From positions 62,001 to 126,000 of the forward strand of contig NZ_JACJOO010000057.1 in assembly GCF_014695575.1 (NCBI RefSeq): a DNA stretch of 64,000 nucleotides, read 5' to 3'. Positions 6,449-60,236 of the stretch are shown one piece after another (the stretch's first letter is position 1; each line of letters starts with the position of its first letter). The position numbers were made by a program, and so were the translations under genes. Under the pieces are notes generated by a model, which made no database searches, was not told the DNA's origin, and saw only the letters and a program-made list of their open reading frames with translations. The DNA comes from Leptolyngbya sp. FACHB-8 (lineage in GTDB: Bacteria > Cyanobacteriota > Cyanobacteriia > Elainellales > Elainellaceae).

Positions 6449-6549
6449 TAGCAAAGCCGTTCTTCTCCTTGAAAATACGCAAATTCGATTGAATAGTACG
6501 GCACTTAATCGACTTTGATATAGAAATTTTAGATATAACTATCACCAGC

Positions 6550-6637
6550 GGGTGCATCCCAGTTTTGTTAATGTGGCGGGCGAAGCCCGCCACATTAACA
6601 AAACTGGGATTTCAATCTGCAAAAGTGGGATGTACCC
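6550..6637. repeat. Family D palindromic element, copy D1, with 8-bp direct flanks
   Basis: Starts GGGTGCATCCCAGTTTTG and ends GTGGGATGTACCC, with an inner hairpin ATGTGGCGGGC-GAA-GCCCGCCACAT. It is bordered by TCACCAGC (6542-6549) and TTACCAGC (6638-6645), a 7/8 direct repeat in the same position as the exact 8-bp flank of copy D2. This is the signature of transposition. Confidence 0.85.
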
Positions 6638-7099
6638 TTACCAGCTATCTTGTATCAAAAGGAGAGAGGTAGAGCTTCGCTCCTTCTGATACAAGCTTGG
6701 TGCTCTCGAGGCTCTTAGTAACAAAGTTTCTAGCCCGGTAATTCACTTCGGTAGAACCAGGTTTTTCCGGATTCTCCGTTTAATCTGCGTAAGGGTCGAT
6801 AGCAGTATCAAGGTTTTTCAATTGTCTCGTTGATAAAGCATGAGGAACATCTAACAAGTTTTGTAGACCAAATAAATGGTGCTGATCCTTGATGGAGCTT
6901 CTATCACCGAATGTGTCAAGATTTAAGGTTCTTGACAACTTGTAGGTAATTTCACGCAGTTCTTCACTTGAAATATATAGATTTAAAGCCTGTGGCGCTT
7001 ATAAAAGAGTCCAATCATTCACAATAACTTGCATTTCACGTTCCGGCTGAGCTTGGGAACCGCTCGAAAAATGAGGTAGCAAACGTGACATAGACACCT

Positions 7100-16340: not shown

Positions 16341-16468
16341 GTAACCTCAGTTCGGGTTAAGGGTGTTTTCGAGTGCCGCGCAACGCGCGGCACTCGAAAA
16401 CGCTCATTTTGGCGTGCGCTTTGCGCACGCCAAAATGAGCACTTCAGCTTATCCCGAACTGGGGTTAC
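16341..16468. repeat. Family A double-hairpin element, copy A1
   Basis: 128 bp. Ends AACCTCAGTTCGGG and CCCGAACTGGGGTT. Two consecutive perfect hairpins lie inside: GTTTTCGAGTGCCGCGC with loop AAC, and GCTCATTTTGGCGTGCGC with loop TTT. ACGT borders both ends, consistent with a 4-bp duplication. It is between two convergent genes. Confidence 0.9.
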
Positions 16469-19976: not shown

Positions 19977-20077
19977 CTAGTAGGCTACGGCCTAAGTTCG
20001 TTGCCTATTTTTTGTGGTGGGGTGCGAAGCACCCCACCACAAAAAATAGGTTGTACACTTCTGCCTCAGCATACTAG
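19977..20077. repeat. Family B palindromic element, copy B1
   Basis: 101 bp, CTAG at both ends. Inner hairpin TTTTTTGTGGTGGGGTGC-GAA-GCACCCCACCACAAAAAA is perfect. Outer sequence (TAGGCTACGGCCTAAGTTCG) matches the right ends of B2-B4, so B1 is inserted in the opposite orientation to them. It lies between two minus-strand genes. Confidence 0.85.
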
Positions 20078-28375: not shown

Positions 28376-28476
28376 CTAGTACGCTGAGGCGGAAATCCAT
28401 CACCTATGTTTTTATGTAGGGTGCTTCGCACCCTACATAAAAACATAGGTTGCGAACTTAGGCCGCAGCCTACTAG
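28376..28476. repeat. Family B palindromic element, copy B2
   Basis: 101 bp with CTAG at each end. Left outer sequence TACGCTGAGGCGGAAATCCA, right GCGAACTTAGGCCGCAGCCTA. Inner hairpin TTATGTAGGGTGC-TTC-GCACCCTACATAA: loop TTC is the reverse complement of GAA in B1, B3 and B4. Confidence 0.88.
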
Positions 28477-29894: not shown

Positions 29895-29992
29895 CTATAC
29901 GCTGAGGCGGAAATCCATCACCTATGTTTTGTGTGGGGTGCGAAGCACCCTACACAAAACATAGGTTGCGAACTTAGGCCGCAGCCTACTAG
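29895..29992. repeat. Family B palindromic element, copy B3
   Basis: 98 bp, left border CTA, right border CTAG. The stem carries one G-T mismatch (GTGTGGGGTGC against GCACCCTACAC), midway between the A-T pairing of B2 and the G-C pairing of B4. Confidence 0.88.
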
Positions 29993-30043
29993 GCATCGAA
30001 ATGATTGGGTGTAGTGCTTAACGCCACACAGGTAGTGTTCTAG

Positions 30044-30102
30044 ACATGTAGATGGGTGGTGAAAGGGCCACTTCATGCCCCTTTCACCACCCATCTACAT
30101 GT
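30044..30102. terminator. Long hairpin downstream of the M48 protease gene
   Basis: ACATGTAGATGGGTGGTGAA stem, 24-bp arms, loop of about 11 nt; 25 bp past the M48 stop codon (30127 end of gene). Confidence 0.75.
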
Positions 30103-30126
30103 TTGAAACTGGCCTGTTACACACAA

Positions 30127-34939: not shown

Positions 34940-35065
34940 TAACCTGAGTTCGGGTTAAGGGCGTTTTCAAGTGCCGCGCAACGCGCGGCACTTGAAAACG
35001 CTCATTTTGGCGTGCGCAAAGCGCACGCCAAAATGAGCACTTCAGCTTATCCCGAACTGAGGTTA
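34940..35065. repeat. Family A double-hairpin element, copy A2
   Basis: Same plan as A1. Hairpin 1 is GTTTTCAAGTGCCGCGC (loop AAC), with a compensated base pair relative to A1 (AAG/CTT instead of GAG/CTC). Hairpin 2 has loop AAA instead of TTT. Flanks do not form a clear direct repeat. Confidence 0.88.
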
Positions 35066-36864: not shown

Positions 36865-37816
36865 AGACCTTGAAGTCATTGGATACCAAACTTTCAGCAA
36901 CCTGAACGACTAAGACAATTATCAACGTTGATAGAACCGCAGAACGTGCCAAACATTACCCAGGAGCCTTAGGGCTATTCTATTCCCAAATCACATCTGA
37001 AGCGCCTGGTTAGTTTCGCGGTATCCGGCTTTAGGTTGCCCAAAATGGCGGGTTGCCGCCAAGCAGATCAGAGAGAAGTGGAGAAGTGCCTAGCCAATCC
37101 TCCGTTTTTGGAGGGGCTGATTACTATACCCACTAAATTTCTGAACCTAATCTAGCTTCGGTTATACCTTAAAACTTTTGTCTCTATGCGTAATCATGTT
37201 CACTTTCCTGCATTTTTCGCTAGGGACTCTAAAGCGGAGATTTCCGCATAAGAATTTACCCATCATGTGGGGGCTTTACGCAGTCGCAGGCAAAGCCCCC
37301 ACATGATGGAGGCAATGTCATTCCTGAAAATCTCCCAAGAGTTTGTACTGGTAAGGCATGAAGATGCTGTTCTCGACGTGTGGTTGGCTGTTGTAGCGCA
37401 GAATATGGGCTCAAGCTTTACCGGCTTTTGCCACCCTGTAACTGACCGTAGCATGATGAAGGCTATAGAAGTTTTGGGAAGATGGGAAGGCGTACACTTC
37501 TGGTTTGATAAATTTGTGCGAAGAGACGGTCTGAGATAGAGACGCCAGTGGAGAAATGGGGGAGCATAAGATTAAGGAAGACCTGTTGGATCTTGGGGTC
37601 GATTCATCGATTCGGCACATGTGGGTCAGGGGGCTCAGTCAGAAAACCTGGTAATTTCTACGGTAGGAGCTGGGTTTCGGCTAAACTAAAACGCTTGGAT
37701 AATGTTCGCGATGCCCCTTATGGCTCTATGCTTTTGCGAGGCACTACCAGCGACGAAGCGATAGTAACCTCGCCACTTCAAAACAGGTGTACTCTCATCG
37801 GACGGATTGCAGGGGA
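36865..37816. other. Long divergent intergenic region between sasA and the GT4 gene
   Basis: About 950 bp. No convincing coding frame: a 90-codon frame at 37267-37539 starts inside a palindrome and has no similarity I recognise. The palindrome is at 37261-37308. Likely holds the promoters of both genes. Confidence 0.5.
37261..37308. repeat. Palindrome in the divergent sasA/GT4 region
   Basis: CATCATGTGGGGGCTTT (17-bp arm, one further pair interrupted) against AAAGCCCCCACATGATG, loop ACGCAGTCGCAGGC. Lies about 400 bp from sasA's start and 510 bp before the GT4 start, so a terminator role is unlikely. Confidence 0.7.
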
Positions 37817-39004
37817 ATGAAAATTCTGGTTCTGGCCTGGGAGTTTCCTCCCCGCATTGTGGGAGGGATTGCCCGCCACGTTGCAGAACTATATCCCGAA
37901 ATTACCCGGCTTGGACATCAGGTTCACTTGCTGACGGTGGAATTTGGGCAGGCACCTCACTACGAAGTTGTGGAAGGCATCCATGTGCATCGGGTGCGAG
38001 TGGGACCCGGCCACGACTTTTTCCACTGGGTAGACAATATGAACACCAGCATGGGGCAGCATGGGGGTAAGCTGCTACTGGACGATGGGCCATTTGACCT
38101 GATTCATGCCCATGATTGGCTGGTAGGAGATGCGGCGATCGCCCTCAAACACATTTTCCGCATTCCCCTCATTGCTACCATTCATGCTACCGAGGCAGGC
38201 CGCCACAATGGACTACATAACTCCACCCAGCACTACATCCACGGTAAAGAGTTGCGGCTGGCCCACGAAGCCTGGCGAGTGGTGGTGTGTTCGCGCTATA
38301 TGCAGCGAGAGGTGGAGCGATCGCTCCGCAGCCCCGCCGACAAAATTGATGTGGTCTACAACGGCATTCGTCCTGAGAAGAAACCGGCTCGCGCCACCTT
38401 CGACTATTTGAGCTTCCGCCGGCAGTTTGCCAAGGATGATGAACAGATTGTGTACTACGTGGGCCGGATGACCTATGAGAAGGGAGTGCAGGTCATGCTC
38501 AATGCTGCCCCCCGCATCATCCGAGCCATGGAAGGGCTTGTGAAGTTTGTGATTATTGGCAGTGGTCAGATTGACCCCCTCAAGCAACAGGTGCGGGATT
38601 TGGGAATTTGGGATTACTGCCACTTCACCGGGTTTATGCCCGATGATCAGTTGAATTTGTTTCAGGCGATCGCGGACTGTGCTGTCTTCCCTAGCCTCTA
38701 TGAGCCCTTCGGCATTGTGGTGCTGGAAAGCTTCGCAGCCCAGGTGCCTGTGGTTGTGTCCGATGTGGGTGGCCTGCCCGAGGTGGTACAGCACGGTCAA
38801 ACGGGCATTGTGACCCAGGCTAATAGCCCTGAATCGCTGGCCCGTGGCATTCTGCAAATTCTGGAACAACCTGATTTCGCTAAAACCCTGGTAGATAACG
38901 CCTACATTGACCTTTATCAGCGTTTTAGCTGGGCAGAGTTGGCAGCACAGACCATTGAGGTATACAAGCGGGTTGCCCTGGAGCGGCAACTGGTGGCCTG
39001 GTAG
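37817..39004 (+). CDS. Glycosyltransferase family 4 (GT-B fold)
   Basis: 395 residues from ATG 37817, with AGGGG six bases upstream. Starts MKILVLAWEFPPRIVGGIAR, with the glycine-rich acceptor loop typical of glycogen-synthase-like GT4 enzymes. The nucleotide-sugar site shows the Ex7E signature EPFGIVVLE followed by PVVVSDVGGLPEVV, and YYVGRMTYEKGVQ earlier. Retaining transferases of this group build polysaccharides, glycolipids or glycogen. No polysaccharide cluster is adjacent, so the acceptor is unknown. Confidence 0.9.
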   Translation: MKILVLAWEFPPRIVGGIARHVAELYPEITRLGHQVHLLTVEFGQAPHYEVVEGIHVHRVRVGPGHDFFHWVDNMNTSMGQHGGKLLLDDGPFDLIHAHDWLVGDAAIALKHIFRIPLIATIHATEAGRHNGLHNSTQHYIHGKELRLAHEAWRVVVCSRYMQREVERSLRSPADKIDVVYNGIRPEKKPARATFDYLSFRRQFAKDDEQIVYYVGRMTYEKGVQVMLNAAPRIIRAMEGLVKFVIIGSGQIDPLKQQVRDLGIWDYCHFTGFMPDDQLNLFQAIADCAVFPSLYEPFGIVVLESFAAQVPVVVSDVGGLPEVVQHGQTGIVTQANSPESLARGILQILEQPDFAKTLVDNAYIDLYQRFSWAELAAQTIEVYKRVALERQLVAW

Positions 39005-39006
39005 TC

Positions 39007-39154
39007 TGAACTTCAAGACACCCCGATGTTTCAAAAACAGGGTGCATCCCACTTTTGTAAGTGAAGCGGGCTACGCCCGCTTCACTTACAAAAGTGGATT
39101 TCCAAATTTGCAAAAGTAGGATGCACCCCAAAAACACGCGTGTCTTGAAGTTCA
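39007..39154. terminator. GT4 gene terminator-like palindrome split by element D2
   Basis: Outer arms TGAACTTCAAGACAC (39007-39021) and GTGTCTTGAAGTTCA (39140-39154) are exact complements, now about 120 bp apart. Removing D2 and one copy of its flank leaves a compact stem-loop just after the GT4 stop. The insertion thus disrupted an older hairpin. Confidence 0.75.
39040..39128. repeat. Family D palindromic element, copy D2, with exact 8-bp direct flanks
   Basis: 89 bp. Ends GGGTGCATCCCACTTTTG and AAAAGTAGGATGCACCC; inner stem TAAGTGAAGCGGGC-TAC-GCCCGCTTCACTTA. CAAAAACA lies at 39032-39039 and 39129-39136, immediately outside both ends: an exact 8-bp target-site duplication. Confidence 0.93.
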
Positions 39155-39160
39155 GGGCTT

Positions 39161-39242
39161 ATAACAAGTAAGGTTAAATACCGATGATAAAAAGTGGTGC
39201 GGCGCTTTGCGCCGCACCACTTTTTATCATCGGTATTTAACC
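39161..39242 (+). repeat. Family E hairpin element, copy E1
   Basis: 82 bp. Reads ATAACAAGTAAGGTTAAATA, then the long stem CCGATGATAAAAAGTGGTGC with its complement (loop TTT). The second copy, E2 (53365-53446), is the same length and inverted. Confidence 0.75.
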
Positions 39243-39400
39243 CGACATGATATTACGTATCGATGTTGGTGATGGGGGCGGCGCACTCCACCACTAACAT
39301 TGATGGGGTTGAGGTCGAAAGTACAGGTGAACTCTGCTAGATTTAGCCATAGAAATAGGCATTGCCTATCCCTCCTATTAAGTTCTGGCTGCCCGTCTGG

Positions 39401-53311: not shown

Positions 53312-53364
53312 GGGTGCATCCCACTTTTGTAAGTGAGGCGGGCGAAGCCCGCCTCACTTACAAA
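53312..53364. repeat. Truncated family D element (D3) at the head of a repeat mosaic
   Basis: GGGTGCATCCCACTTTTG, then stem AAGTGAGGCGGGC-GAA-GCCCGCCTCACTT as in D2. Sequence breaks off right after CAAAAG, where family E copy E2 begins. Confidence 0.8.
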
Positions 53365-53446
53365 AGTTAAATGCTTATGATGAAAAGTGGCGCGGCGCAA
53401 TGCACCGCGCCACTTTTCATCATAAGCATTTAACTTTACTTGTTAT
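53365..53446 (-). repeat. Family E hairpin element, copy E2
   Basis: 82 bp, inverted relative to E1: GTTAAATGCTTATGATGAAA stem, ending TAACTTTACTTGTTAT, the complement of the E1 left end. It sits exactly between fragments of D and C elements. Confidence 0.75.
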
Positions 53447-56955: not shown

Positions 56956-57081
56956 TAACCTCAGTTCGGGTGAAGGGCGTTTTCGAGTGCCGCGCGTTGC
57001 GCGGCACTCGAAAACGCTCATTTTGGCGTGCGCTTTGCGCACGCCAAAATGAGCACTTCAGCTTATCCCGAACTGAGGTTA
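56956..57081. repeat. Family A double-hairpin element, copy A3
   Basis: As A1, but hairpin 1 has loop GTT instead of AAC. Hairpin 2 has loop TTT. Outside the AACC/GGTT ends, ACCT occurs on both sides in direct orientation (56953-56956 and 57081-57084), supporting a 4-bp duplication. Confidence 0.9.
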
Positions 57082-60154: not shown

Positions 60155-60236
60155 AGTCTCAGTTCGGGTTAAGGGCTTTTTCGAGTGCCGCGCTTCGCGC
60201 GGCACTCGAAAAAGCCCTTAACCCGAACTCAGGTTA
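60155..60236. repeat. Single-hairpin derivative of family A (A4)
   Basis: AGTTCGGGTTAAGGGCTTTT-type arm runs straight through into GAGTGCCGCGC, loop TTC, and back to CCCTTAACCCGAACT. Hairpin 2 and the asymmetric right end of A1-A3 are gone, leaving one 33-bp perfect stem. Confidence 0.85.

Follow-up and report, generated by a model that had tools for sequence, protein, structure and literature searches.

D2, a MITE in a palindrome of Leptolyngbya sp. FACHB-8 probably moved by an ISKra4-family transposase

D2 is very probably a MITE that an ISKra4-family transposase (ISMich2 group) moved into a palindrome through a staggered cut. It is real but ordinary mobile DNA and belongs to the ISKra4 family. 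It has defined ends and target duplications, is mobile in multiple copies, and matches the ISKra4 elements of related genomes in both its ends and its duplication length. The insertion reading is supported by duplications throughout the family, intact target sequences, an element-free locus in a sister species and ISs with matching ends. Together the copies form a MITE family that is complete in its anatomy, has moved recently and is linked to ISKra4/ISMich2 transposases in filamentous cyanobacteria, with uninterrupted targets surviving in the same genome.

Anatomy of D2 and its insertion site

D2 lies downstream of a glycosyltransferase gene in the 64-kb stretch of DNA analysed here (the window). 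The features of the site are as follows.

37787..39004, plus strand: GT4-type glycosyltransferase gene, upstream of the D2 insertion
39006..39021: left arm of the outer palindrome (D2 insertion target)
39032..39039: left target duplication of D2, CAAAAACA
39040..39128, plus strand: D2, 89-bp non-autonomous element (MITE), by direct sequence reading
39040..39057, plus strand: left terminal inverted repeat of D2, GGGTGCATCCCACTTTTG
39049..39097: inner hairpin of D2, 23-bp perfect arms with loop TAC
39111..39128, minus strand: right terminal inverted repeat of D2, read on the minus strand as GGGTGCATCCTACTTTTG, one mismatch to the left repeat
39129..39136: right target duplication of D2, CAAAAACA
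39140..39155: right arm of the outer palindrome

The junctions read CAAAAACA / GGGTGCATCCCACTTTTG...CAAAAGTAGGATGCACCC / CAAAAACA. The terminal inverted repeats are 18 bp long and match at 17 of 18 positions. The flanking duplications are identical at all eight positions, for which the chance at fixed ends is ~1.5e-5, and the original prediction of an exact 8-bp duplication around an 89-bp element is borne out in both coordinates and identity. The complementary outer arms that it described are indeed fully complementary (100%), but they are 16 bp long and not 15 bp. When D2 and one duplication are removed, the outer sequence folds into a 16-bp stem with an apical part of 21 nt.

Copies of the element in the genome

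Two further copies occur in the window.

6550..6637, plus strand: D1, a member of the second sub-family, 88 bp long, with duplication TCACCAGC/TTACCAGC at 6542-6549 and 6638-6645
53312..53368, plus strand: third copy, truncated, with the left end and inner hairpin kept and the right end lost

D1 had been described as having the same structure as D2. This likeness is limited to the duplication, which has one mismatch, because the best arms spanning D1 are only 7 bp and no outer palindrome is present. The right end of the third copy is lost where another palindrome (GTTAAAT...ATTTAAC) starts.

Across the 6.93-Mb assembly, the 18-base end matches with at most three mismatches at 73 forward and 68 reverse positions, compared with 0 forward and 1 reverse for a reversed-pattern control. 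At least 54 complete copies were recovered among the matches listed; outside this count fall some unpaired ends and 41 matches of the 141, for the most part weaker ones. These 54 include 25 copies of 89 bp and 12 of 88 bp, the others ranging from 36 to 216 bp. Loss of the 22 bp that separate two copies of CAAAAGTGGG would yield the 67-bp form, and forms of 55/56 bp have no hairpin. The element is present in both orientations. It has no coding capacity and, at mostly 88-89 bp, is too short to encode a transposase. D2 is therefore a MITE on all counts, being short and gene-less, with terminal inverted repeats, a target duplication and dispersal in many copies. D1 and the copies at L139, L143 and L144 are identical in sequence at separate sites, which points to probable recent movement.

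Target duplications and uninterrupted targets

Exact duplications of 8 or 9 bp flank 23 of the 54 complete copies (0.45 expected when right flanks are shuffled among copies); 14 of these are 8 bp and nine are 9 bp. Another 19 copies have a duplication with one mismatch, so that for 42 of 54 the two flanks repeat the same 8 or 9 bp with no more than one mismatch, where shuffling gives an expectation of 0.84. Both lengths occur in both sub-families. The 12 copies with no clear duplication speak against this reading, though the lack would be expected if they are old, truncated or internally deleted.

For an uninterrupted-target comparison, the flanks of copies other than D2 were joined, one duplication was removed, and the result was compared with the genome. 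At least three copies other than D2 split repeats whose uninterrupted versions persist in the same genome. The copy at L117 splits a 36-bp repeat, TATAGCAATGTGCAAG/TGCGTTAAGTACAGCAACGG, with duplication ATGTGCAAG, and this target repeat is intact at 70 places in the genome with at most two mismatches. Across the junction, L026 and L044 share 87% identity in a 91-bp stretch, and the joined flanks of L143 match the window at 30031-30109. No second copy of the outer palindrome around D2, a possible empty site, was found elsewhere in the genome.

The sister-species locus (L076, which seems to be identical to L095, Filamentous cyanobacterium LEGE 07170) keeps the order of the GT4 and helicase-like genes, with an interval of ~130-140 bp that contains neither the element nor the palindrome. 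This interval is not a strict empty site; it agrees with a probable gain of D2 in the present lineage. The original prediction had proposed looking in related strains for an uninterrupted hairpin with a single CAAAAACA. No such version was found, the hairpin being unique to this site in the genome and missing from the sister species; the interval there lacks the element. The proposed 8-bp-staggered insertion stands as an insertion, given the family-wide duplications and intact target repeats, with the amendment that the cut can be offset by 8 or 9 bp across the family.

ISKra4-family insertion sequences in relatives and in this genome

A search had also been suggested for an IS family with the ends of D2 and 8-bp duplications. 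Such a family is found in related genomes as ISKra4, with duplications of 8 or 9 bp. There, ~18-bp ends the same as or closely similar to those of D2 bound ISKra4-family ISs of 1.16-1.22 kb (L048, L069, L046, L052, L071 and L004), with exact duplications at L048 (GTCTCCTG), L069 (AATAGATC) and L071 (AGTAGAGCC). Their transposases score 227-250 bits against NCBIfam NF033572 (ISKra4), for which the cut-off is 205 bits. At L004, the end identity extends a few bases beyond the inverted repeat (GGGTGCATCCCAGTCTTGTAAGTG, against GGGTGCATCCCACTTTTGTAAGTG in the MITE). Overlapping open reading frames in the -1 register are present at L048/L069, L046, L052 and L071. Members of the ISMich2 group have two open reading frames joined by a -1 frameshift (PMC3942029), and the ISs in relatives appear to share this arrangement, the frameshift being predicted.

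This transposase group has inverted repeats of 18-39 bp and duplications of 8 or 9 bp (PMC3942029), and the mixed duplications seen here match that range better than a fixed length of 8 would. D2 resembles the ISMich2 group (p-MULT 4; PMC3942029) in its inverted repeats of the 18-bp class ending in C and in its 8/9-bp duplications, and differs in having no transposase gene and in its length (89 bp against ~1.2 kb). It is also like other bacterial MITEs, including the cyanobacterial Nezha (PMC10969869), in being short, gene-less, bounded by inverted repeats, flanked by duplications and present in many copies. A particular feature of D2 is its inner hairpin beside one end. REP and REPIN palindromes, mobilized by RAYT, are similar as small multi-copy palindromic repeats, but D2 differs from them: its inverted repeats are of the conventional kind and it has duplications of 8-9 bp, features that indicate a DDE transposase. 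The review of bacterial MITEs (PMC10969869) does not mention ISKra4, and a literature search for the end sequence GGGTGCATCCC returned nothing related.

Transposase searches of the present genome covered the ISKra4 family. No complete ISKra4 transposase is assembled, by either the family model or a single-protein search, and a search with an ISKra4 alignment profile gave only one fragment at a contig end. An ISKra4-type IS is nonetheless most likely present in unassembled form, since four contigs, C42, C55, C71 and C77 (L172, L173, L175 and L176), terminate inside one. Three of them stop 134 bp into the left IS end, and the fourth stops within the right end, which codes for the transposase C-terminus (...HRCAYLNG). 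This resident IS is a candidate for the current driver of the MITE; its ends, GGGAGCATGTCACCTTTG / GGGAGCATGTCACTTTTT, depart from those of the MITE at 4 of 18 bases, and a parent IS with exactly the ends of D2 was not found in this genome's assembly.

In the proposed mechanism, the ends of D2 (GGGTGCATCCCACTTTTG, inverted) would serve as recognition sites for an ISKra4-family transposase of the ISMich2 group, whose members are Mutator-like DDE transposases. Acting in trans, this enzyme would carry D2 into a palindrome already present 3' of the GT4 gene, with a target cut staggered by 8 bp, and gap repair would then leave CAAAAACA at both sides of D2. We infer both the family that moved D2, ISKra4 and not another using the same ends, and the IS that supplied the transposase.

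Evolution of the inner hairpin

Among 28 distinct copies of 88/89 bp, the inner 24-bp stem has changed on both sides at ten positions while 98.5% of cells remain paired, and double-changed cells number 50 against 12 expected. The outer eight terminal pairs show zero two-sided changes. In the larger sub-family, the arms carry 17 two-sided changes, 16 of which restore pairing, and nine one-sided changes; the terminal repeats carry 25 one-sided changes and no two-sided ones. The loop is seen both as GAA and as its reverse complement TTC in each sub-family. In the window, arm co-variation falls at 39049-39097 (D2) and 6556-6610 (D1).

Template switching between inverted repeats leaves arm homogenisation with spacer inversion as its published signature (PMC8604942). 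Because the copies show this signature, template switching is the preferred explanation of the joint arm changes and loop inversion, and would account for them in place of selection on the hairpin. It seems unlikely that the hairpin, instead of merely being carried along, persists because it serves some function, such as one in transposition or in RNA. These near-identical copies with co-varying arms offer a handy natural record of arm homogenisation and loop inversion.

Alternative explanations

The great stability of the D2 hairpin (-57 kcal/mol, z -12), together with inner arms that keep their complementarity through double changes, could suggest a fixed structural repeat, such as a terminator, an mRNA-stabilising hairpin or a REP-like sequence, retained for an RNA function and with an incidental direct repeat. 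Yet the hairpin has no T-tract 3' of it, no Rfam match was obtained with the whole 64-kb window searched, and the only terminator-like sites among promoter and terminator signals belong to a neighbouring hairpin at 39194-39220, outside D2. The occurrence of the element in both orientations and the element-free sister locus also argue against such a repeat. As the sole explanation it is refuted by the duplications and the uninterrupted target sites, and overall it is extremely improbable; a secondary RNA role of D2 is possible. Only a little less improbable is mobilization by a different family that makes 8-9-bp duplications (IS256, ISH6, IS1595 or IS66), with ISKra4-like ends arising by convergence. 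The lack of an assembled intact parent in this genome, where ISKra4 was the family searched for, and the four differing bases in the resident ends would fit this origin, but the ISs of relatives with such ends encode ISKra4 transposases above the curated cut-off, and convergence does not sit well with the identity past the inverted repeat at L004.

Movement by an ISKra4-family transposase, which we prefer, leaves the question of the palindrome itself. The perfect 16-bp inverted repeat around D2, and a few other copies that lie within or adjoin hairpins, might indicate that the element targets palindromes and that its location is part of the mechanism. There is no enrichment, however: spanning arms of 10 bp or more were seen at 3 insertion points among 53 and at 13 of 212 nearby control positions. 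An encounter between D2 and a palindrome is also to be expected, because the window alone contains 52 inverted repeats of at least 15 bp. The landing of D2 in a hairpin is the chance expectation for a genome with so many palindromes, and targeting is very improbable.

Other repeat families

Several other repeats were noted. A second palindromic family, GTTAAATnnnnATGATnAAAAGTGG..., is found at 39161-39253, by D2, and at 53363-53437, by the truncated third copy; a palindrome of this type is terminator-like on both strands at 39194-39220. The 36-bp repeat TATAGCAATGTGCAAGTGCGTTAAGTACAGCAACGG occurs at 70 places in the genome (e.g. L149-L158), many of them identical. A further family resembling MITEs is bounded by CCTCAGTTCGGGATAAG / CCTGAGTTCGGGTTAAG and has members at 16345-16464, 34943-35062, 56959-57078 and 60157-60233, and at L028 (1303-1518). 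The L028 copy is nested in a D-type MITE. This family also seems to generate 8-bp duplications, since TTACAAAA flanks the nested copy on each side. Additional palindromes of ~100 bp, of the CTAGTAGGCTGCGGCCTAAGTTC type, are located at 19977-20077, 28376-28476 and 29898-29988.
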